From Bacteroidales bacterium (GTDB taxonomy: Bacteria > Bacteroidota > Bacteroidia > Bacteroidales > P3): a stretch of 51,170 nucleotides of DNA. The stretch is from positions 1-51,170 of the forward strand of contig JAEEMK010000091.1 of assembly GCA_016283175.1 (NCBI GenBank), read 5' to 3'. The notes beneath the pieces were generated by a model. It saw only the letters and a list, made by a program, of their open reading frames with translations. It did no database searches and was not told the origin of the DNA. Of the stretch, positions 22,800 to 43,170 are shown piece after piece (the first letter of the stretch is position 1; each line of letters begins with the position of its first letter). The translations under genes and the position numbers were made by a program.

Positions 22800-25247
22800 T
22801 TATTTGTTCTGAATCGCTATGCTGTCCTGCAGTGCCATCAGAGGCGATACTGTGTAGGGTATGTATTTGCGCATATGCGCAGGCATAGTGAAATAGTATT
22901 CAAGTTGCTGGTATAGAATTCTGTGCGCTTGGCTCATCATAGCGTCGGAACGGACGCTGTCGCCGCATAAAGCGTAGGCTTTCGAAGCGCGATAGAAAAG
23001 ATGCGGACTCTTCATAATACTCAGTGGAATATATGAATAGGTGACATCAAGCACATCTTTACCTTTGTTCTGTCTGCCCGATTTGGCCAGTTTTTCGGCC
23101 ACAAGCAACGCATCGTCCCAATACTGCCGCAAGAACGATAAAGAAGTCTCGTCGATATAGACATTCTCAAGTGGATGCCATTTCAGACGCGATGTCATCA
23201 GACAGTAGGAGGCTTTTAGGTCAATACTGTCGCTTGGCACGGTGTCGCATAGACAATAAGCCATTCCACTCAGCTGCAGGCGTGTGCCGAAGGTCGACTT
23301 GTGCCCATTGGCGGCATAGTGGCTGAAATAAACCGGCCGTTGCCCACAGTTATTCTCCATAATCATTTTCATACGACGATAAGGACCCGTTTGGCGCCAG
23401 TCGTCGCCGACAATGATATTGGAACCTTGCTGCAGAAATTGTTTTCTTACAGATTCACAGTAGTTGTCGCTGCCCAGCAGAGACAGGTTCACAATCTGGA
23501 CATCGGTTCTGAATCCTTCCACTTGCTGCATATACCACAGGGGAAAAGTGTCGTTGTCGCCAACGGTGAAGAGTATGGCATCCTTGTCGCACGAATTCAG
23601 AAGGTTGGCAGCGGCATCGTGTGCTATGTAGCGCCCCGAACGGTCGTGGTCGTCCCAGTTCTGCGCTGCCATAAGCAGCGGCGTACCTATAACAATGACA
23701 GGAAGCAACGGTTTCACCAGATGCTGCATCCATTTGCGTTTGAACACCTTGACAAGCATAGCGTAGGCTCCGATACCAATCCATACTGCAAACGCATAAA
23801 ACGAAAGCACGTAGGCATAGTCGCGTTCACGCGGTTCGTAGACAGGGTGGTTCAGATATATCGACAGCAGCACACTCGATGTAAGGAACAGTGTCGTCAA
23901 CATCCAAAAAATGCGTTTGTTGCGCCGAGCCAAAGCAACAATACCAATAATGCCCATTATCAATGGCAGTAGGAAGTAGCGGTTGTGGCCTGCATTCTGC
24001 AGCGATTGTGGCAATTTGGCTGCTGTACCGACATAAAGACGGTCCACAAAGGGTATTCCGGTAATGAACTGTCCCTTTTGCAGATTGCCAAAGCCCTGCC
24101 GGTCGTCGTATCGGCCGGAGAAATTCCACATCAGATAGCGTAAATACATATACCCCAGCTGATAGCCTCCGAAAATCACCAAGTTGTCGCCAAACGAAGG
24201 CTTGTAGTATTCTTTGCCGTCAACCTCGACCATTCGGCCGTGGCGGCCGGTCCAGTCGGTATAGTATAGCTCGGCGTTGGCGTGCTGCTTCCACATACGT
24301 GGAAACAGCATATCCATCTCTTTGGCATAGACCGGTCTGCCTTTTTTGAATGCCACAATCGGCGAGTTGAAACAGCGTCCATAGAGTAGCGGTGCCTTTT
24401 CGTATTGGTCGCGTGAGATATACGATTTGAAAGCCGTCCACGAACTTGGGTTGCCCTGGTTGATTGGAGGGTCGGCGGCTGCGCGGATCGGAAGAATGAG
24501 ATAGGGTGTCAGACCGATTGCGAAAAATGCCAGAAGAAGCGCAATGTGTTTGACAAGCGGAATGACGCGGGAAGATCTGATGCTGGTGTCCGAATCACTT
24601 TCACTTGTTTCACGTGTGCGCCTTTCGTGACGTTTAAAAACATAGACTAGTGCCACCATCGGCATCGTTAGCAGGCTCAACTGATGAACGCCTACAGAAA
24701 GACCTGCAAGCAAAGCAATAAGCATCAGCCATCGAGTGCTGCCATCCTCTTCGTCGCTCTGCCACCAGCGTATTGTAGCCCAAACGATTGCAGAAGAGAA
24801 AAGCATCGAAAGGCTGTATACCTCGCTTTCGACAGCTGAAAACCAGGCGGTGTCGCAAAACAAGTAGCACAAGGCACCCGATGTCGCGGCGACTATGCGT
24901 TTCCATCGCGGAGCTTTGTTGCCCAAGGTGTTGATGATGCGTAGCAGTGTCCAAAACAAGAACATTGCCGTCAGTCCGCCAGCTACTGCCGACAAAGCGT
25001 TGCTCCACCACGCCACGGTCTGTGGATTGCCACCGGCAAAAAGCATAAAGCAATGAGCCAAAAGTTGGTAGAGGGGTGCTCCTGGAGGATGCCCAATCTG
25101 CAAGCCCTGTGACGTGGCTATGAACTCGCCACAGTCCCAGAAACTTACTGTCGGCTCGAGCGTAAGCAAATAAACAGCGGTGCCCAATGCTGCAATAGCC
25201 CAGCCGATAATAATATGAATATTGTTTTTGATATTTCGATTCGACAT
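22800..25247 (-). CDS. DUF2723 integral-membrane protein, probable protein O-mannosyltransferase-like
   Basis: An 815-residue polytopic protein. The first half has many transmembrane helices in a GT-C glycosyltransferase pattern. The catalytic-type acidic motif sits early, in FWDCGEFIATSQGLQIGHPPGAP (residues 36-58). Other DUF2723 hallmarks are YLILPIRAAADPPINQGNP and HPVYEPRERDYAY in the middle, and DNDTFPLWYMQQVEGFRTDV in the soluble C-terminal part. The family is related to eukaryotic TMEM260, which transfers O-mannose; Bacteroidota have general periplasmic O-glycosylation. It follows lptE by 15 bases on the same strand and ends convergently with the SprT-like gene. Confidence 0.87.
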   Translation of the reverse strand: MSNRNIKNNIHIIIGWAIAALGTAVYLLTLEPTVSFWDCGEFIATSQGLQIGHPPGAPLYQLLAHCFMLFAGGNPQTVAWWSNALSAVAGGLTAMFLFWTLLRIINTLGNKAPRWKRIVAATSGALCYLFCDTAWFSAVESEVYSLSMLFSSAIVWATIRWWQSDEEDGSTRWLMLIALLAGLSVGVHQLSLLTMPMVALVYVFKRHERRTRETSESDSDTSIRSSRVIPLVKHIALLLAFFAIGLTPYLILPIRAAADPPINQGNPSSWTAFKSYISRDQYEKAPLLYGRCFNSPIVAFKKGRPVYAKEMDMLFPRMWKQHANAELYYTDWTGRHGRMVEVDGKEYYKPSFGDNLVIFGGYQLGYMYLRYLMWNFSGRYDDRQGFGNLQKGQFITGIPFVDRLYVGTAAKLPQSLQNAGHNRYFLLPLIMGIIGIVALARRNKRIFWMLTTLFLTSSVLLSIYLNHPVYEPRERDYAYVLSFYAFAVWIGIGAYAMLVKVFKRKWMQHLVKPLLPVIVIGTPLLMAAQNWDDHDRSGRYIAHDAAANLLNSCDKDAILFTVGDNDTFPLWYMQQVEGFRTDVQIVNLSLLGSDNYCESVRKQFLQQGSNIIVGDDWRQTGPYRRMKMIMENNCGQRPVYFSHYAANGHKSTFGTRLQLSGMAYCLCDTVPSDSIDLKASYCLMTSRLKWHPLENVYIDETSLSFLRQYWDDALLVAEKLAKSGRQNKGKDVLDVTYSYIPLSIMKSPHLFYRASKAYALCGDSVRSDAMMSQAHRILYQQLEYYFTMPAHMRKYIPYTVSPLMALQDSIAIQNK

Positions 25248-25262
25248 TGGGCGAGAAATAGA

Positions 25263-25784
25263 TTACCAGTTTACTACCGACTTGTTGAATACATCGTCGC
25301 ACAATTCGCTGACAATCTCACCCATAAGCGTGTTTTCCACCGATGAGAAATTGAGCTGCGCATTATAGTCGCGGTAGCGTGAAAACGACTGCTCGAAATT
25401 GGCATCGGGGTCGCAGTTGTTGACAAACTTCACTTTGATGGTGATTGTCAAGCGGTTCATCGACACCTCGTCGTTGGCCGAAAGAGCCGCGGCGCGGGTT
25501 ACGTATGACGTTATCTCGCCTGAAACTTCAAGGTCGGCGTTGCCGTTGACGACATTGAGGCTGGTTTGCGACGAAAAAAGATTACGCAAGTCGTCTGTCA
25601 GCTTCTGGCTCAACTGCGGATTGACAGTGGTGGCATAGTTGGGGAACGTGCTGACCGATATGGTTTTGGCATTCGGCGGGATGGAAGCGCCAGTGAAACT
25701 GTAACCACCCTTGCAGCCGCACCATAGTAGGGCCGCAAAAGCCAGCAGCAGCGTCAAACAACATTTATGCCAATGGTTTTTCAT
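25263..25784 (-). CDS. lptE: LPS-assembly lipoprotein LptE
   Basis: A 173-residue lipoprotein with a signal peptide ending at Cys24 (lipobox LWCGC, slightly atypical). The mature protein opens YSFTGASIPPNAKTISVSTFPN, the recognisable LptE start in Bacteroidota, and continues with the predicted alpha/beta fold (LSQKLTDDLRNLFSSQTSL). LptE plugs the LptD barrel during LPS export to the outer membrane. Its start overlaps the stop of the small upstream ORF by four bases, and the DUF2723 gene follows closely. Confidence 0.88.
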   Translation of the reverse strand: MKNHWHKCCLTLLLAFAALLWCGCKGGYSFTGASIPPNAKTISVSTFPNYATTVNPQLSQKLTDDLRNLFSSQTSLNVVNGNADLEVSGEITSYVTRAAALSANDEVSMNRLTITIKVKFVNNCDPDANFEQSFSRYRDYNAQLNFSSVENTLMGEIVSELCDDVFNKSVVNW

Positions 25785-25951
25785 ACGTTATGAGAGTCGT
25801 TGTCAATATGTTTCTCGTCCTCCATCTGCCAAAGCATAAAGCCCGCTTGTTGTTCCATATAGGTCAGAACAGCGTGCTTGATGTTCAGGTCGTTGATGTT
25901 GCTGATCTCGTTGACTATCTCGTCGATCTTTTTCTTTATATTGTTGTCCAT
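25781..25951 (-). CDS. Small acidic protein of unknown function, upstream of lptE
   Basis: A 56-residue reading frame starting at the ATG at 25951 (MDNNIKKKIDEIVNEIS); a longer frame from 26017 adds 22 residues that overlap the promoter. The sequence is helical and charged with no signal peptide. Its stop overlaps the lptE start (ATGA on the minus strand), which supports translation. No family recognised. Confidence 0.55.
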   Translation of the reverse strand: MDNNIKKKIDEIVNEISNINDLNIKHAVLTYMEQQAGFMLWQMEDEKHIDNDSHNV

Positions 25952-26014
25952 ATTAAATACTGTTTGTTTGATTTGCAGCCTTTTGTGGTGAATTATGACT
26001 GCTGCTACAGTTTG

Positions 26015-26022
26015 CAAATTTA
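26015..26022 (-). promoter_or_regulatory. -7 element for the lptE operon
   Basis: TAAATTTG on the minus strand, 63 bases upstream of the small ORF. A TTTG box lies 22 rather than 19 bases upstream, so the match is partial. Confidence 0.4.
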
Positions 26023-26245
26023 CGAAAAAAAATACTTTTTATGACAAAGGGGCCCATAATTTGCACAATAAAAATGTCAAATCAGGATGATGTTTTGCGT
26101 AATACAATACAAGACAGGGTGTTGGCGCGTAAAATGCCGGGGTGTGTCGCACCGGCAATGCAGCACTGGCAAATCTGCTCCGGAAGGTGTTGCCAACCAA
26201 ATTCCTTCAAAAACGGTTGTAAAATGTGAACCAGCAAGTTGCGGG

Positions 26246-26270
26246 CACCGGTGTTTCACGGTGTCTTTTT
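26246..26270 (+). terminator. Terminator-like hairpin beside the palindromic repeat
   Basis: CACCG (26246-26250) pairs with CGGTG (26259-26263) around an 8-base loop and is followed by TCTTTTT. No plus-strand gene ends here, so it is more likely part of the repeat-bearing insert than a gene terminator. The stretch 26023-26245 shows no credible gene. Confidence 0.3.
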
Positions 26271-26305
26271 AGGTACAAAAAAGGTGCATAGCATATACCT
26301 TCAAA

Positions 26306-26404
26306 GGCATATGTACAGTACTTGTACAGTATATGTACAGTATGTGTACGCTTCAGAAGCGTACATATACTGTACAAGTACTGTACAAGTACTGTACATA
26401 TGCC
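26306..26404. repeat. Near-perfect 99-bp palindrome of 11-bp TGTACAGTAYT units (copy A)
   Basis: The two 49-base arms (26306-26354 and 26356-26404) are reverse complements at 46 of 49 positions, around a single A at 26355. Each arm is itself a tandem array with an 11-bp period: units of the type TGTACAGTAYT (itself containing the palindrome TGTACA), ending in TGTACGCTTC at the centre. A weaker outer symmetry continues to about 26271 and 26439 (AGGTRCAAAAA with its complement, equally spaced from the centre). The reading frames across it are artefacts of the repeat. It lies in an 808-base gene-free region between divergent genes. Confidence 0.9.
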
Positions 26405-26577
26405 AGGGAATGTATACCGAAAACAGTGTTTTTGCACCTATTTGAAACTTTTGAATCATCGTGAAACAGAAACATACACAACAGTTTTGCTGTCAGTCAT
26501 TTCCAGTATCGATTCAATTCCGGGTAAAATGACTGTCTGGTAGATGGTCGCAACTGGGGGAAAGTCTGGCTAGATAT

Positions 26578-26607
26578 TAAAAAAGGCTTCGACCGTTAGG
26601 TTGAAGC
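26578..26607 (-). terminator. Orphan terminator-like hairpin
   Basis: GGCTTCGACC (26584-26593) and GGTTGAAGCC (26598-26607) form a 10-bp stem with a GTTA loop and one mismatch (a G-U pair in one orientation). On the minus strand the stem is followed by TTTTTA. No minus-strand gene lies just upstream, so it may terminate a short untranslated transcript or antisense RNA from the Ig-like gene promoter region. A 9-bp inverted repeat (26494-26502 with 26527-26535) lies just before it. Confidence 0.4.
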
Positions 26608-26760
26608 CCTCAAATACATCTTGAAATTTTATAAGCACGCCATATTAACGGCATCGTGTGGTTTTTATTTTGCGTAAATGCTTTTTTTTGACTTTTTATG
26701 ATTTCGGGCAATATGTGAAGTTATCTGCCGTTATATTTATTTATTATTGAAACATAGCAA

Positions 26761-28470
26761 ATGCATCATAAACATTTTTTGTCGATTTTTTTTCTTCTCG
26801 CAGTACTGTTGACAGGCTGTGCCAAGCAGGGTATGCCGACCGGCGGTCCTAAGGATGTTACGCCGCCGGTTCAGAAACGGACAGTGCCCGACAACCGTAC
26901 GCTCAGTTTTGCGGACAATCAGTTCTATATAGAGTTCGACGAGTATGTTGTACTGAAGGATGCCGACAACAATGTACTTGTGTCGCCACCTCTTAAAAAC
27001 AAGCCCGAAATCAAGACAAAAGGGCGTGGCGTGCAAGTCAAGATCAAGGACACTCTGGCTGAGAACACGACCTATCTGTTTCAGTTCAAGGATGCTATAG
27101 CCGACTTCAACGAGGGCAATCTGTTGCCTTCGCTCGAATATGTCTTCTCGACGGGCAGTTATATCGACAGTATGACCGTGCGCGGACGTGTTGTCGACGC
27201 GATGACTTTCGAGCCGCGCGAAGAGGCTGTGAGTGTTTGGCTGATGTCGCTGGCTGACGCTGAGCGTTTTATGGCGACATATGGCGACAGCGCTGCAACT
27301 GCGCCCAAGCTGGCCTATGCCACACGCTGCAACAAAGATGGTTCGTTCGTTTTCAACTATATGGCTCCTGGTAAGTATAGGATTTTCGCTGTGGTTGACG
27401 AGAATAAGAACCAGCATATAGAGCCAGGTGAGAGTGTGGCTTTTGCGATGGGAGAGGTTGAATCGAAGAATATGAAAGACAGTGTGATGGTGGATTCCGT
27501 TCTGCGCAGTTCCGCCGACACGGAGCCTGTAGAACTGCTGATATTTACCCCCAATGCCGACAAGCAGCGCGTCACGGGCAGCGATTTCACGGCGTCGGGC
27601 AAGGTGCGACTGACGACACTTCTGCCGATGGAGGCGCCTGTTGTTGATGCAGGTGGCGAGAAGGTAATGTGGCGGCTTAATGCCAGACGCGACACGCTGA
27701 CACTGTGGACTTTTCGTGAAAAGTGCGACTCGCTGCGGCTTGTGGTGAGCGACAAATCGGGCATTGCCGACACGTTGCAGCTGCGGTGGCGTCCCAAAAA
27801 GGGCAAGGGAACAGCAATGGCCCAGATGCAGCTTGGCAGCGGCTTAGAGATGAATCTGAATCACAAGACATTGCCTTTCTTTGATACATTGTCTTTGGTG
27901 TTCAATACACCACTTGGCGGCGAAAGTGGGGCAAGGGACTCATTAGTGCAGGTCAAATGCTTGAAGGACAGCAGCCTGATGTATTGTGCTGTTGTGGTGG
28001 ACAGTGGCTTGATGAAGGCGAGAATTGTGTATGACTTCAAACAGGGCGAGAAGTACGAAGTAGTGGTTTCAAAGGGTTGTTTCAAAGATATTTATGGAAA
28101 GGGCAATGATTCGTTGAGTGTGGCTGTCAGCGTTACAAAGGCGGAAGAATACGGCAATCTGACGGTGGAGATTAGGGACACCACTCTGCTGTTGCCGCCC
28201 GATTATATAGCTATTGTTCAGTTGCTTGACGAGAAGGGAACGGTAGTGGTCTCGGAGAATGCATATACAAATGTAATCAAGACATTTTTCCCGCACTTGA
28301 AACCAGGCAAATACCGTGTTCGTGCCATAGTGGACGAAAACCGCAACGGCAAGTGGGACACAGGCAATTTCGCTGCCGGAGTCCAGCCCGAGCGCGTGGT
28401 GTATCTGCCTAAGACACTGGACATTCGTGCCAATTGGGATTTTGAAGAGAAATTGGAGTTGTCGAAATGA
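26761..28470 (+). CDS. Ig-like (SbsA/Big_5) domain lipoprotein
   Basis: A 569-residue lipoprotein (lipobox LLTGC, lipidated Cys20). The segment after it, GMPTGGPKDVTPPV, is the hallmark of a Bacteroidota family that begins with a Big_5-type Ig domain (residues 27-125). A middle region holds CarboxypepD-like folds (EPREEAVSVWL, PGKYRIFAVVDENKNQHIEPGE), and a second such repeat lies near the C-terminus (PGKYRVRAIVDENRNGKWDTG). The role is unknown; it is probably cell-surface or periplasmic. The next gene, a flippase, overlaps its stop by four bases, which suggests a link to surface polysaccharide or lipid export. Confidence 0.85.
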   Translation: MHHKHFLSIFFLLAVLLTGCAKQGMPTGGPKDVTPPVQKRTVPDNRTLSFADNQFYIEFDEYVVLKDADNNVLVSPPLKNKPEIKTKGRGVQVKIKDTLAENTTYLFQFKDAIADFNEGNLLPSLEYVFSTGSYIDSMTVRGRVVDAMTFEPREEAVSVWLMSLADAERFMATYGDSAATAPKLAYATRCNKDGSFVFNYMAPGKYRIFAVVDENKNQHIEPGESVAFAMGEVESKNMKDSVMVDSVLRSSADTEPVELLIFTPNADKQRVTGSDFTASGKVRLTTLLPMEAPVVDAGGEKVMWRLNARRDTLTLWTFREKCDSLRLVVSDKSGIADTLQLRWRPKKGKGTAMAQMQLGSGLEMNLNHKTLPFFDTLSLVFNTPLGGESGARDSLVQVKCLKDSSLMYCAVVVDSGLMKARIVYDFKQGEKYEVVVSKGCFKDIYGKGNDSLSVAVSVTKAEEYGNLTVEIRDTTLLLPPDYIAIVQLLDEKGTVVVSENAYTNVIKTFFPHLKPGKYRVRAIVDENRNGKWDTGNFAAGVQPERVVYLPKTLDIRANWDFEEKLELSK

Positions 28471-29915
28471 AGAAGTCGCTGCTAACGGGATTGTTCTGGG
28501 TTTTGCTGGCAAATCTGCTGGTCAAACCGTTCTGGCTGCTCGGCATCGAGGTCGGAGTGCAGAATGCCGTGGGCACCGAGATGTACGGCTTCTATATTGC
28601 CATTTTCAACCTCACTTACATATTCAACATCCTGCTTGACCTGGGCGTGACCAACTTCAATACGCGCAATATTGCGCAGTATCCCAAGCTTATCGGCAAG
28701 CACCTGTCAGGCATACTGAGTATCAAGCTGATGCTGCTGGCGTTGTATGTTGTAGTGACGTTCAGCGTCGGGGCACTACTGGGTTATGGGGCTACGCAGT
28801 TCAAGCTGCTGGCGTGGCTGAGTTTCAATCAGTTCCTCGGTTCGATGATACTCTATCTGCGCAGCAATTTCGAAGGGTTGCTGCTGTTCAAGTGGGACAG
28901 CCTGCTAAGTGTTATGGACCGCATATTGATGATAGTCATCTGCGGCACAATGCTTTGGGCACCGTTTGGCGGTGGCATTTCGATATTCAAGTTTGTCTAT
29001 GCGCAGACAGCGGCCTATATTGTCACCGCGGGGTTGGCGTTTTGGGTGTTGGCGCGCAAGACAGGCCTTCGCAAGCTGCACTGGAACAAGCCTTTCACGT
29101 ATGCCATACTGAAGAAGAGTCTTCCGTTTGCGCTGCTGGTGCTGCTGATGGCCAGCTACAACAGGTTGGACCCCGTGTTGCTGCAGCTGCTTTCGCCTGA
29201 CGGTGCAGGCGACTTCAATGCGGGCGTCTATGCCGGTGCGTTCCGTTTGCTCGACGCTTTGACGATGATAGCCTATCTTGTGTCGGTGCCGCTGCTGCCG
29301 ATATTCTCGAAGATGACGAGGGCAGGGGAGGCGAGCCGCGAGCTGGGCGACACGGTGCGGATGATGTTCTCGATGATGATGGTCTTTGCCGTCACCGCCT
29401 CTTGCGCCCTTGCTAGTATGGACGGCGAGCTGATGGCGCTGTTCTATGACGACAATGTGGGCGACTATGCGGGAGTGTTCCGCGTGGTGGTGTTCTGCAT
29501 AATACCTATCTCGACGACATACGTCTTCGGCACGCTGTTGACGGCGGCAGGCAGGCTGAAGAGCCTTAACGTCTTCGCTGCCACATCGTTGGCGGTCAAT
29601 GCCTTGATCAACGTGCTGCTCATTCCACGCTGGGGAGCGGCAGGCAGTGCGTGGGCGGCGCTGACGGCACAAAGCTTTATGGCTGTGGCGCAGGTGGTGG
29701 CCGCTGTAAGGATATTTAAACTAAAACCTTCGGTCGGCTACATACTAAAACTGCTGTTTTTTACGTTAGCCATAGTTGGGTGCACGTTCTTCACGCCGCA
29801 TCTGAAGTGGTGGATAGCGCTTTCGGTGGTGGCGGCGGTAGCCGTGGGACTTGCTATGGTGCTGAGACTGATAGATTTGAAGGAGATAATCAAAATTATA
29901 CAAACTGAAAAATAA
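28467..29915 (+). CDS. Polysaccharide flippase of the MOP superfamily (Wzx-like)
   Basis: A 482-residue integral-membrane protein with about 12-14 hydrophobic helices in the MATE/Wzx pattern. Features include GTEMYGFYIAIFNLTYIFNILLDLG in the first repeat and TYVFGTLLTAAGRLKSLNVFAATSLAVNALINVLLIPRWGAAGSA in the second, the typical Wzx region. No glycosyltransferase cluster is adjacent, so the substrate (O-antigen, lipid II or other lipid-linked glycan) is open. The start overlaps the stop of the Ig-like lipoprotein gene, and fabD follows nine bases later. Confidence 0.85.
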   Translation: MKKSLLTGLFWVLLANLLVKPFWLLGIEVGVQNAVGTEMYGFYIAIFNLTYIFNILLDLGVTNFNTRNIAQYPKLIGKHLSGILSIKLMLLALYVVVTFSVGALLGYGATQFKLLAWLSFNQFLGSMILYLRSNFEGLLLFKWDSLLSVMDRILMIVICGTMLWAPFGGGISIFKFVYAQTAAYIVTAGLAFWVLARKTGLRKLHWNKPFTYAILKKSLPFALLVLLMASYNRLDPVLLQLLSPDGAGDFNAGVYAGAFRLLDALTMIAYLVSVPLLPIFSKMTRAGEASRELGDTVRMMFSMMMVFAVTASCALASMDGELMALFYDDNVGDYAGVFRVVVFCIIPISTTYVFGTLLTAAGRLKSLNVFAATSLAVNALINVLLIPRWGAAGSAWAALTAQSFMAVAQVVAAVRIFKLKPSVGYILKLLFFTLAIVGCTFFTPHLKWWIALSVVAAVAVGLAMVLRLIDLKEIIKIIQTEK

Positions 29916-40880: not shown

Positions 40881-41438
40881 ATGGAGAGACGAATTCAAAT
40901 CAGAAAAGGTGATATATTGTCTATCACCAGAGGAGAAATCAAAAGGCATATCCAGTATGTCTGTAATGATTTTTATCAACTGAATGGTAATATTATATAT
41001 ATTTTCAAGACAAAATATAGCTCTAAAGACGATCCGACAATAGAAGAAATAGTAAATGACTCTTATGAATTGGTCCTACATACGTTTGTACGAATTGGTG
41101 TAAAAAAAAACGGATGGAAAAAGATCGGACATTCCCATTCTAAAGATGTAAGTGATATTTATTTTTTTACTTGGAATGATGACGATCAACGAAGAATATT
41201 ATCTATGTGTAATCATTTCTCCGAATATAACTGGAGAGTGTGGACAATAAACAAAGAAATGCCGTATGAAAATGAATTACCAACAGGGAAATGTATGTAC
41301 GGCCCTGTTTATCCACCATCACACATAGAAAATATCTTATTCGACAATGAACCAATAGTTCATCCAAAAACAGTAAATCAAATTGTTTCACGCGGATTGC
41401 TTGTACCTCCAATTGCAACGTATAAAGTTGTAACCTAA
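40881..41438 (+). CDS. Imm26-like immunity protein
   Basis: A 185-residue AT-rich gene unrelated to the two before it. The opening RRIQIRKGDILSITRGEIKRHIQYVCNDFYQLN and the segment IIYIFKTKYSSKDDPTIEEIVND resemble the Imm26 immunity family of Bacteroidota polymorphic-toxin loci, as I recall it. There is no signal peptide. It is the last gene of the module; its stop is followed within three bases by the tandem motif that also bounds the other Rhs module. Confidence 0.6.
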   Translation: MERRIQIRKGDILSITRGEIKRHIQYVCNDFYQLNGNIIYIFKTKYSSKDDPTIEEIVNDSYELVLHTFVRIGVKKNGWKKIGHSHSKDVSDIYFFTWNDDDQRRILSMCNHFSEYNWRVWTINKEMPYENELPTGKCMYGPVYPPSHIENILFDNEPIVHPKTVNQIVSRGLLVPPIATYKVVT

Positions 41439-41704: not shown

Positions 41705-41795
41705 GTTGTACAGTACTTGTACGCTATATGTACAGTATATGTACGCTTACGAAGCGTACAAATACTGTACATATACTGTACAAATACTGTACATA
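41705..41795. repeat. 91-bp palindrome of 11-bp TGTACAGTAYT units (copy B)
   Basis: The arms 41705-41748 and 41752-41795 are reverse complements at 38 of 44 positions around the 3-base loop ACG. Each arm holds four 11-bp units of the pattern (A/T)TGTACAGTA(T/C) ending in TGTACGCTT at the centre, as in copy A at 26306. The surrounding 41816-42108 is AT-rich, with no gene; TATTTTTG at 41930-41937 is a possible -7 element for the redox operon. Confidence 0.88.
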
Positions 41796-42108: not shown

Positions 42109-43170
42109 ATGGAAGATTTTTTTGTTTCCGGAATACAGCAAGTCGGCGTGGGATGTGTTGATTTTCAGGCATCTTGGCGCTGGTATATCGAGATGTTCCA
42201 GATGGATGTGCGCATCCTTGAGGACGACACTGTGGCCGAGCGTATGCTGCCCTATACGGGCGGCAAGCCGCAGAAACGTCACGCCTGCATAGCCGTCAAC
42301 CTGCAGGGTGGCGGCGGCTTCGAGATATGGCAGTACAGCGAGCGCAAGCCGCAGCCTGTGAACTTTGACATCCAGGTCGGCGATCTTGGCATCTTCGCCG
42401 CCAAAATAAAGAGCCGCGACGTTGAGGCTTTCCGCAGCGAGTTGCTGAAGAAATACGACAAGATAGGTACGCTCAACACTTTGCCCGACGGCACACGCTG
42501 CTTTGTGGTCGAAGACCCGTGGGGCAACTGGTTCCAAGTGGTGGAGGATAAGTATGTCTTCATCGACAAGAAGCGTCTGAGCGGTGGCATCGTCGGCGCC
42601 ATTACCGGCTGTACGGACATTGACCGCACGATACCGCTCTACCGCGACGTGCTGGGCTATGACCGCGTTGTATACGACGAGACTGGTACGTTCGAGGACT
42701 TTGGCTTTATGCGAGGCGGCAACGGTCGTTTCCGCCGTGTGCTGCTGGCTGGCAGCAAGAAGCGCAAAGGCGCCTTCGTTCCTCTGTTCGGCGAGAGCAC
42801 CATCGAGCTGGTGCAGTCTCTTGACCGTGAGCCGCGCAAGATTTTCGAAGGCCGCCAGTGGGGCGACCCGGGTTTCATTCAGATATGCTTCGACGTCACC
42901 AATATGCGCGCCCTCGAGAAGCACTGCAACGCGCTGGGCTTCCCCTTCACGGTGGACAGCTGCAAGGGCGACGAGCATTTCGATATGGGCGAGGCCAGCG
43001 GCCACTTCACCTACGTCGAGGACCCCGACGGCACACTGATCGAGTTGGTGGAGGCGCACAAACTGACGATTCTCAAGCACCCGCACCTGTATATCAATAT
43101 GCTGACACGCAACCGCGAGAAGGCGTTCCCGAAGATGTTCTTCCGCTTGATGGGGATGAATAAAGTTTAA
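42109..43170 (+). CDS. Double-VOC protein related to 4-hydroxyphenylpyruvate dioxygenase
   Basis: A 353-residue protein with two vicinal-oxygen-chelate domains (about 5-150 and 160-330), the layout of HPPD-type dioxygenases. The expected first-strand His ligands are replaced: GIQQVGVGC in domain 1 and GAITGCTDID in domain 2. The second His position reads GFIQICFDV. The usual Glu near the domain end (LIELVEAH) is kept. A standard HPPD iron site therefore seems incomplete, and the substrate is unknown. It is the first gene of the redox operon (stop to next start 28 bases), so it may bind or process the substrate or a partner of the Hdr-like proteins. Confidence 0.75.
   Translation: MEDFFVSGIQQVGVGCVDFQASWRWYIEMFQMDVRILEDDTVAERMLPYTGGKPQKRHACIAVNLQGGGGFEIWQYSERKPQPVNFDIQVGDLGIFAAKIKSRDVEAFRSELLKKYDKIGTLNTLPDGTRCFVVEDPWGNWFQVVEDKYVFIDKKRLSGGIVGAITGCTDIDRTIPLYRDVLGYDRVVYDETGTFEDFGFMRGGNGRFRRVLLAGSKKRKGAFVPLFGESTIELVQSLDREPRKIFEGRQWGDPGFIQICFDVTNMRALEKHCNALGFPFTVDSCKGDEHFDMGEASGHFTYVEDPDGTLIELVEAHKLTILKHPHLYINMLTRNREKAFPKMFFRLMGMNKV

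Follow-up and report, generated by a model that had tools for sequence, protein, structure and literature searches.

Dispersed intergenic palindromes are a known kind of bacterial element; chromosomal protein sites are likewise dispersed in the case of MatP and matS, and the BrickBuilt MITEs have a tandem-repeat structure. REP and BIME elements (the GTAG and CGTC families, with RAYT) occur as dispersed intergenic palindromes, often in more than 100 copies and in genome-specific sequence families of which one genome may hold several; according to an excerpt of PMC3733652, REPs measure 20–40 bp, have mostly 6–9 bp stems and carry a GTAG or CGTC tag. Tens of dispersed palindromic chromosomal sites also serve proteins that act on the nucleoid and on division, and the excerpted text of PMC4726725 gives about 70 sites for Noc, whose consensus is a single 14-bp palindrome, and 24–52 for SlmA. 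The parC of plasmid R1 is an array of 11-bp repeats bound by ParR, with repeat sequence and spacing that vary among plasmid families (PMC9426499, in part). The ends of Tn7, Mu and IS21 are inverted and hold repeated transposase sites, and target immunity would space copies of such elements; parts of PMC10122671 and PMC11208146 describe AAA+-linked target immunity as well as transposon ends that carry multiple direct repeats. The BrickBuilt MITEs of Porphyromonas gingivalis (PMC5771137, in part) are intergenic repeat elements in Bacteroidales, which we set beside the present copies by description only.

The palindromes reported here are set apart from that known kind by helical phasing, mutual exclusion along the chromosome and the swapping of spelling at shared positions. 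Their arms of 45–58 bp lie outside the REP range (20–40 bp, with a short stem) and consist of 11-bp-phased repeats, the copies are over-evenly spaced, and their positions are common to species; inspection by eye of 91 aligned copies and of those in the relatives G061 and G064 gave no consistent GTAG or CGTC end tag, the shoulders being of CATATG or CGTTG type on both sides. The likeness to Noc and SlmA sites and to R1 parC is one of analogy only. Each site here carries eight phased half-sites whose sequence turns over between species, and about 100 inverted arrays are present per chromosome as against the direct repeats of a plasmid centromere. Unlike the ends of Tn7, Mu and IS21, the two arms enclose neither cargo nor transposase (the centre is 3 nt) and no target duplication was seen, and unlike CRISPR arrays the 11-bp units are contiguous in inverted arms without spacers. 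A literature search, thin in its coverage of subscription journals, found no prior description of such an element, and no element known to us has eight half-sites in helical phase, keeps its copies at least 7.5 kb apart and also shows swapped sequence at shared positions.

The window is the whole 51,170-nucleotide stretch analyzed, contig C2 in the genome (G000; 2,249,148 bases in 111 contigs, 93.8% complete, broken at repeats) of a Bacteroidales-like gut bacterium. A first-pass annotation of this DNA had described a palindrome with 49-nt arms matching at 46 positions around one base, and our palindrome scan returned exactly this structure (copy A; score 40, equal to 3 mismatches). A repeat search placed the center at the same base and extended imperfect arms to 85 nt at 80% complementarity. 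RNA folding of 26270–26450 gave −98.2 kcal/mol against −41.1 (SD 3.7) for shuffled sequences (z = −15.3; 0/200 shuffles equal), and the annotated 11-mer, with at most one mismatch, matched 11 times in the window against 1.17 expected, a number that 0/100 shuffles reached. Six of these matches lie in copy A and five in a second element, copy B. The features are as follows.

25263–25784, minus strand: LptE-domain gene to the left of copy A, divergent
26249–26305 (limits approximate), minus strand: degenerate outer flank module of copy A, of the outward ...GGTATATGCTATGCACC...GTGAAACA type, common to many copies
26306–26404, no strand: copy A, 49-nt arms about base 26355
26306–26311, plus strand: left shoulder of copy A, GGCATA
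26312–26344, plus strand: left arm of copy A, three 11-bp units TGTACAGTA+NN starting at 26312, 26323 and 26334
26345–26353, plus strand: left tip unit of copy A, TGTACGCTT
26354–26356, no strand: loop of copy A, CAG, 3 nt
26357–26365, minus strand: right tip unit of copy A, the reverse complement of TGTACGCTT
26366–26398, minus strand: right arm of copy A, three 11-bp units starting at 26366, 26377 and 26388
26399–26404, minus strand: right shoulder of copy A, TATGCC
26405–26475 (limits approximate), plus strand: degenerate outer flank module of copy A, of the other type, AGGGAATGTATACCGAAAACA...GTGAAACA
26761–28470, plus strand: gene to the right of copy A with an Ig-like (Big_5) domain, its start 406 bp from the center
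41707–41793, no strand: copy B, arms 41707–41748 and 41752–41793 (90% complementary), loop ACG, one TGTACGCTA unit
42109–43170, plus strand: gene to the right of copy B with a glyoxalase-superfamily domain, its start 359 bp from the center

The gene to the left of copy B (40881–41438) has an Imm26 (immunity protein) domain. The flanks of copy A (23354–29355) map to two separate contigs, C4 and C14 (L344, L348), of the relative G098, which is compatible with a rearrangement breakpoint near the palindrome.

The first pass knew of no matching family, and the collections that we searched agree with it: Rfam 15 returned 32 matches up to E = 1 for window positions 25700–27000, all of them microRNA families below their gathering scores, which we dismiss as what any long hairpin may give, and phage and plasmid collections returned no match to a 221-base query (E 1e-5, low-complexity filter on). 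Three viral matches (L122–L124) are not this palindrome; L123 and L124, both IMG/VR contigs, hold short direct repeats, namely TGTACAGTACT doublets in an iteron-like arrangement. Exact-pattern matches in Lysinibacillus, Bacillus, Muricauda and others are apparently chance or coding sequence, as none of the 16 loci read by eye among the matches listed is palindromic.

Copy A belongs to a family of about 100 closely similar 97-base palindromes in G000, each built of eight short-motif units one helical turn apart. The exact tip GTACGCTTNNNAAGCGTAC occurs 91 times, and a pattern allowing loops of 1–6 nt returns the same 91 as the 3-nt pattern, so that the loop is 3 nt long in every copy with an exact tip. 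At least five others, with the tip altered or absent, lie on C3, C7, C10, C18 and C81, and the total is a lower bound because the profile searches scored the best 150 candidates per genome. Copies are probably undercounted in short-read assemblies more generally, since seven G000 contigs end at palindromes (C10, C18, C34, C43, C72, C75 and C81) and, in UBA3724, an N run falls inside one (gap L065:2296-2353). The double-unit pattern TGTACAGTANNTGTACAGTA matches 181 + 176 = 357 times (reversed control, 0), with 343 of these matches inside the 91 exact-tip copies. Aligned on the tip, the 91 copies share one arm plan, in which a shoulder of CATATG or CGTTG type is followed by three TGTACAGTA and one TGTACGCTT at an 11-bp period; motif-to-motif spacing is exactly 11 bp in 529 cases (97.6%), and the two inner units span 21 bp in 90/91 copies. 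Four units per arm were counted in 80/91, 40/40, 25/26 and 14/14 of the copies examined in four genomes, the counts for G098 being unreliable as its loops of 10 displace the center. The tandem 11-bp phasing described at first pass is thus borne out, and the copy number, which it had proposed to check, is high. Its unit, TGTACAGTAYT, needs revision: the 11-bp length holds, yet TGTACA does not occur in every unit, the innermost of each arm being TGTACGCTT, and the linker letters are not fixed, so that the unit is TGTACAGTA+NN.

The distribution of changes within the copies bears on what maintains them. Across the 91 copies, 52 of 6516 motif cells deviate from the consensus (0.8%) as against 190 of 1088 linker cells (17.5%), and mispairing between arms affects 46 of 3258 motif cells as against 96 of 544 linker cells. 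If all that counted were the hairpin, the linkers too would be protected; linkers that vary and mispair far more than motifs are the pattern expected for protein recognition of phased sites and favor such recognition, in helical phase, over a hairpin requirement alone. The arms nevertheless co-vary, with changes on both arms in 13/48 pairs (40 of the 91 copies aligned; shuffle mean 8.3, 0/500 shuffles equal), a kind of count that kinship among copies can inflate, and extrusion of the copies as cruciforms is possible. The cooperative protein-binding array suggested at first pass accordingly gains from the phasing and from the constraint on motifs over linkers; against it, the search for a protein co-located with the copies, as a candidate binder, found none. 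Beyond the shoulders, column conservation drops to roughly half, and degenerate inverted modules are found there. Within them, GTGAAACA is present in 30/176 outward G000 flanks, about 80–120 bp from the center and in a single orientation (0 in the other), and on both sides of copy A. This motif resembles half of a ParB parS site; we treat it as a piece of the flank module and set it aside as evidence for ParB. A repeated non-coding module, ACCGGGCTGCCACGCACAAGGC...CGCGCTCCACAGGAGCTTGTG, adjoins copies in L026 (1540–1640), L129, L162, L180, L189 and L212 and then has another CATATGCC-like shoulder after it.

The copies are spread along the chromosome more evenly than chance allows. On the 20 G000 contigs with at least two copies, the 36 gaps have a minimum of 7577 bp, a mean of 16.4 kb and a CV of 0.44, copies typically lying 10–18 kb apart. 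Random placement on the same contigs gives a CV of 0.84 and 14.6 expected gaps below 7.5 kb, against 0 observed, and 0/20000 randomizations, in which contigs are treated as independent, were as extreme. Adding the five altered-tip copies (39 gaps, minimum unchanged) leads to the same outcome, as does restricting placement to discrete candidate sites. The eight gaps of G025 repeat this spacing, the shortest being 8667 bp (P = 0.0013), and the ten gaps of G064/G082 repeat it weakly, the shortest being 15473 bp (P = 0.010; CV P = 0.047). A shifted-exponential law, i.e., hard-core exclusion, fits the gaps as well as a peaked gamma law (−125.9 vs. −126.2), and we therefore claim exclusion and over-regularity, not strict periodicity.

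Gene context was read from calls made by a simple codon-usage script, for which orientation counts shift slightly between passes. Both neighbors are resolved for 81 G000 copies, of which 43 are divergent, 33 tandem and 5 convergent; divergent spaces are thus enriched over the 22% length-weighted expectation (P = 8e-10), and convergent ones are rarer than the 19% expected by length. Divergent spaces stand out only moderately when the comparison is with empty spaces of at least 200 bp (odds ratio 3.3, P = 0.008). The other pass, over all 91 copies, gave 41 divergent, 34 tandem, 6 convergent, 9 at contig edges and 1 within a called ORF, in agreement with the intergenic bias that the first pass had proposed as a check; the one "inside" copy (L137) sits where an open frame begins, and an in-frame ATG follows it. 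The motif TAnnTTTG, which we take to be a promoter-like consensus, points toward the gene in 76 of the 125 flanks that run up to a gene start, and toward the palindrome in 13. Its usual place between palindrome and gene puts many copies upstream of the promoter, and many palindromes are probably excluded from the transcript of the downstream gene. We rule out intrinsic terminators by location (43 divergent, 33 tandem and 5 convergent of 81).

Relatives carry the same architecture under other spellings. Searching with the exact dialect of G000 found only 2 of 61 genomes, G000 included, and an early statement that only 1/36 same-genus relatives has the family was rejected as an artifact of querying one dialect. 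Profile and degenerate searches revealed the same architecture as TGTACGGTA/TGTACGCTA in G061 (RGIG6188, sheep rectum; the same contigs as G071) and G064 (RGIG2655, goat omasum; the same contigs as G082), and in a mixed-form spelling in G025 (the same places as G065, RGIG5467, sheep colon). The palindrome is hence not an artifact of one assembly, a possibility that the first pass had raised. Dialect units seen among some same-genus relatives include TGTACGGTA, TGTACAATA, TGTCCGCT and TGTTCAGT, among others. In 400 kb of G098, whose copy-A neighbor protein is the most similar (89%), a palindrome scan blind to sequence recovered 12 elements, two of them with perfect 58-nt arms, and their three main spellings, TGTACAATA, TGTCCAGT and TGTCCGCT, are again different ones; in all 12, period 11 is the best arm self-match among periods 9–13 (61–91%). 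Among 24 de novo palindromes with arms of at least 20 in G098, 12 have period 11, 1 period 14, 1 period 7 and 10 none, while 120 kb from other taxa held no such palindrome of any kind. The 70% period test passes L403 and L427 and fails the L399 and L405 elements, although by direct match their units sit at 11-bp steps. The scan is also weak on asymmetric dialects, catching 3/40 G025 elements at score 22, so that "none" at a locus means none above threshold. Several dialects coexist in G098 and in G082, and they differ so much that it is difficult to picture a single conserved protein binding them all.

The generic pattern TGTNCNNT at 11-bp steps, which misses dialects without TGTNC, has at least 10 matches in 20/120 same-genus genomes and 0 in 78, against 7 matches of its reversed control across all 120. 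Its strands are balanced in many genomes (G110 111/111, G082 52/52) and unbalanced in others (G074 266/160, G095 61/31). Outside the genus, 3/59 genomes from other genera of the family have 1–3 matches, and a few genomes in other families of the order have more (G177 23/13, G272 38/25), G272 holding a long head-to-tail direct array of the 11-bp unit TGTTCGRTAGA (G272:C19:9306-9456). Degenerate 11-bp TGTAC/TGGAC arrays with inverted halves were seen in Prevotellaceae UBA2744 (L071:1940-2030 and L087:1195-1280). Long hairpins of a second kind were also observed: other short units, of GGAGTGAAAG, GTGAATAGTGATTG and GAGAACTGAGAACGGA types, are repeated in tandem along their arms, and several have a GACAAAT/ATTTGTC-like tip at the center. 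At the G000 palindrome site L173, G098 holds this second kind instead. It was found at these places.

L349:1750-1843, second hairpin kind, G098
L353:7268-7384, second hairpin kind, G098
L355:18412-18508, second hairpin kind, G098
L358:12848-12964, second hairpin kind, G098
L247:1493-1607, second hairpin kind, G025
L281:1102-1214, second hairpin kind, G064

Positions of the elements are shared among species above chance. Copy A recurs between the same two genes in G061 and G064, and the protein beside it is 57–59% identical between species sharing positions. For 11/26 G064 copies, both flanks match those of a G000 copy with a summed tblastx score above 1000 bits, a threshold chosen after the scores were seen (the script's own count is 17/26). 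In the G098 sample, 8/22 projectable G000 sites hold an element of another dialect within 500 bp where 3% is expected (P = 1.5e-7, uniform), one of the eight (L181) sitting in the neighboring intergenic space; counted per intergenic space, 5/8 vs. 3/75 are occupied (Fisher P = 1e-4), a test that covers just the 8/12 G098 elements in spaces of at least 200 bp. Upstream of a conserved 689-aa gene, compared across 30 loci (G000 and 29 relatives), five spellings of an 11-bp-step palindrome occur 165–219 bp from the gene at 5/30 loci, in G000, G098, G071, G082 (GTTCTTATATC units) and G009 (CTCCGACC units), and the other 25 loci have no such palindrome above the scan threshold. Presence is patchy, as 14/22 projectable G098 positions are empty and 27/29 relatives lack a palindrome of this design at the copy-A locus, where 5/29 loci hold less than 600 bp of upstream sequence.

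The best reading of a shared place and a shared geometry with replaceable spelling is a site at the level of DNA, which probably binds protein and has an architectural role, and our tentative preference is for a distributed element of this sort, a cooperative protein-binding site that would help to organize the chromosome. In the proposed mechanism, the element presents eight half-sites, four per arm, inverted and one helical turn apart, with the inner two spanning 21 bp; a putative small DNA-binding protein would occupy them side by side, on B-form DNA or on an extruded cruciform, and the roughly 100 clusters, mostly upstream of genes and often divergent, could work as anchors, as loop or insulator points, or as tethers in segregation. 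Gene conversion, or re-insertion into old sites, may homogenize the copies of one genome, and such homogenization would change the unit spelling genome-wide while many positions and the 11-bp architecture persist. Several observations count against an architectural role: the wide differences among coexisting dialects, the patchy presence over the genus, at the copy-A locus and at the locus with five spellings, the empty G098 positions, the moderate size of the divergent bias relative to spaces of at least 200 bp, and the finding of TAnnTTTG on both sides in just 15/40 divergent copies.

The main rival, which we regard as a real if still uncertain possibility, is a REP- or MITE-like mobile palindrome with target immunity, for which the 11-bp units would be subterminal transposase-binding sites. 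Its transposase would be supplied elsewhere, immunity of the kind known for Tn7 and Mu and suggested for IS21 would keep insertions several kb from old copies, and new transposases would bring new dialects, whose copies would land at or inside older elements. The patchy presence over the genus (20/120 genomes with at least 10 matches), the fit of the shifted-exponential gap law, the repeated end sites and AAA+-linked immunity on record (PMC10122671 and PMC11208146, in part) and the several dialects per genome, coexisting dialect families being typical also of REPs, all suit such an element. The inverted outer modules look like MITE-like terminal repeats, with a blurred boundary; these flanks are inverted, not direct, and no target-site duplication was seen in the aligned G000 copies. 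Two-flank comparisons (G098; G071 vs. G082 at one locus) gave no alignable clean empty site. Mobility is further opposed by the fact that no lone arms (343/357 double-unit matches fall inside the 91 copies) and no autonomous separated-arm version in the dialect of G000 were seen in its assembly, itself 93.8% complete and broken at repeats, by a core conserved far above its flanks, and by positions common to species whose copy-A neighbor proteins are 57–59% identical. As to the enzyme, three Y1-transposase matches each lie within about 1.1–2 kb of an element, on one side (G025 C59, G025 C15 and G098 C12), in favor of the mobile reading. Y1 transposases otherwise appear not to track the palindromes, in a transposase search that covered Y1 only: PF01797 is found in 73/119 genomes and not in the palindrome-rich G026 and G071 (81% and 89% complete); in G000 the best match is on C99, which has no exact tip, and the other is on C18, about 8 kb from a copy; and none of four Y1 loci examined, only that of G110 being from a genome rich in palindromes, lies within 1.5 kb of a palindrome.

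Two further explanations were weighed against the same data. A regulatory role, in which the copies act on neighboring genes as insulators, as transcription terminators or as the operators of a global regulator, would explain the upstream location and the divergent bias, and units phased at 11 bp resemble operators; we nevertheless consider this improbable, since convergent spaces are under-represented (5/81 vs. 19% by length), which speaks against terminators, since exclusion below 7.5 kb has no obvious cause in a regulon, and since the promoter-like motif usually lies between palindrome and gene (76/125 flanks), leaving the hairpin probably outside that transcript. The spacing could instead be a by-product, long palindromes recombining and close pairs being lost to selection while the elements themselves are neutral, and the mapping of the copy-A flanks to different G098 contigs would be compatible with rearrangement near the site. 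This we judge very improbable, as it leaves near-invariant motifs beside drifting flanks, shared positions and the fixed 11-bp phase unexplained.

Returning to the architectural site, a bolder form of that reading, which we hold to be rather unlikely, is a chromosome-wide lattice in which geometry is conserved (the palindrome, four one-turn repeats per arm, a minimum spacing of several kb and recurrent intergenic positions) and sequence is not; the code would change across the whole genome, either by homogenization or along with a DNA-binding protein that evolves fast, as a bacterial parallel to rapidly evolving centromeres. The architectural and mobile readings make opposite, testable predictions. 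If the elements are mobile, target immunity would have left an unusually clear mark on the genome, as would a repeat that replaces its own older versions. If they are architectural, they would represent a rare natural case of nearly evenly spaced chromosome-organizing sites in a bacterium, and the dialects found at one locus would amount to built-in natural experiments.
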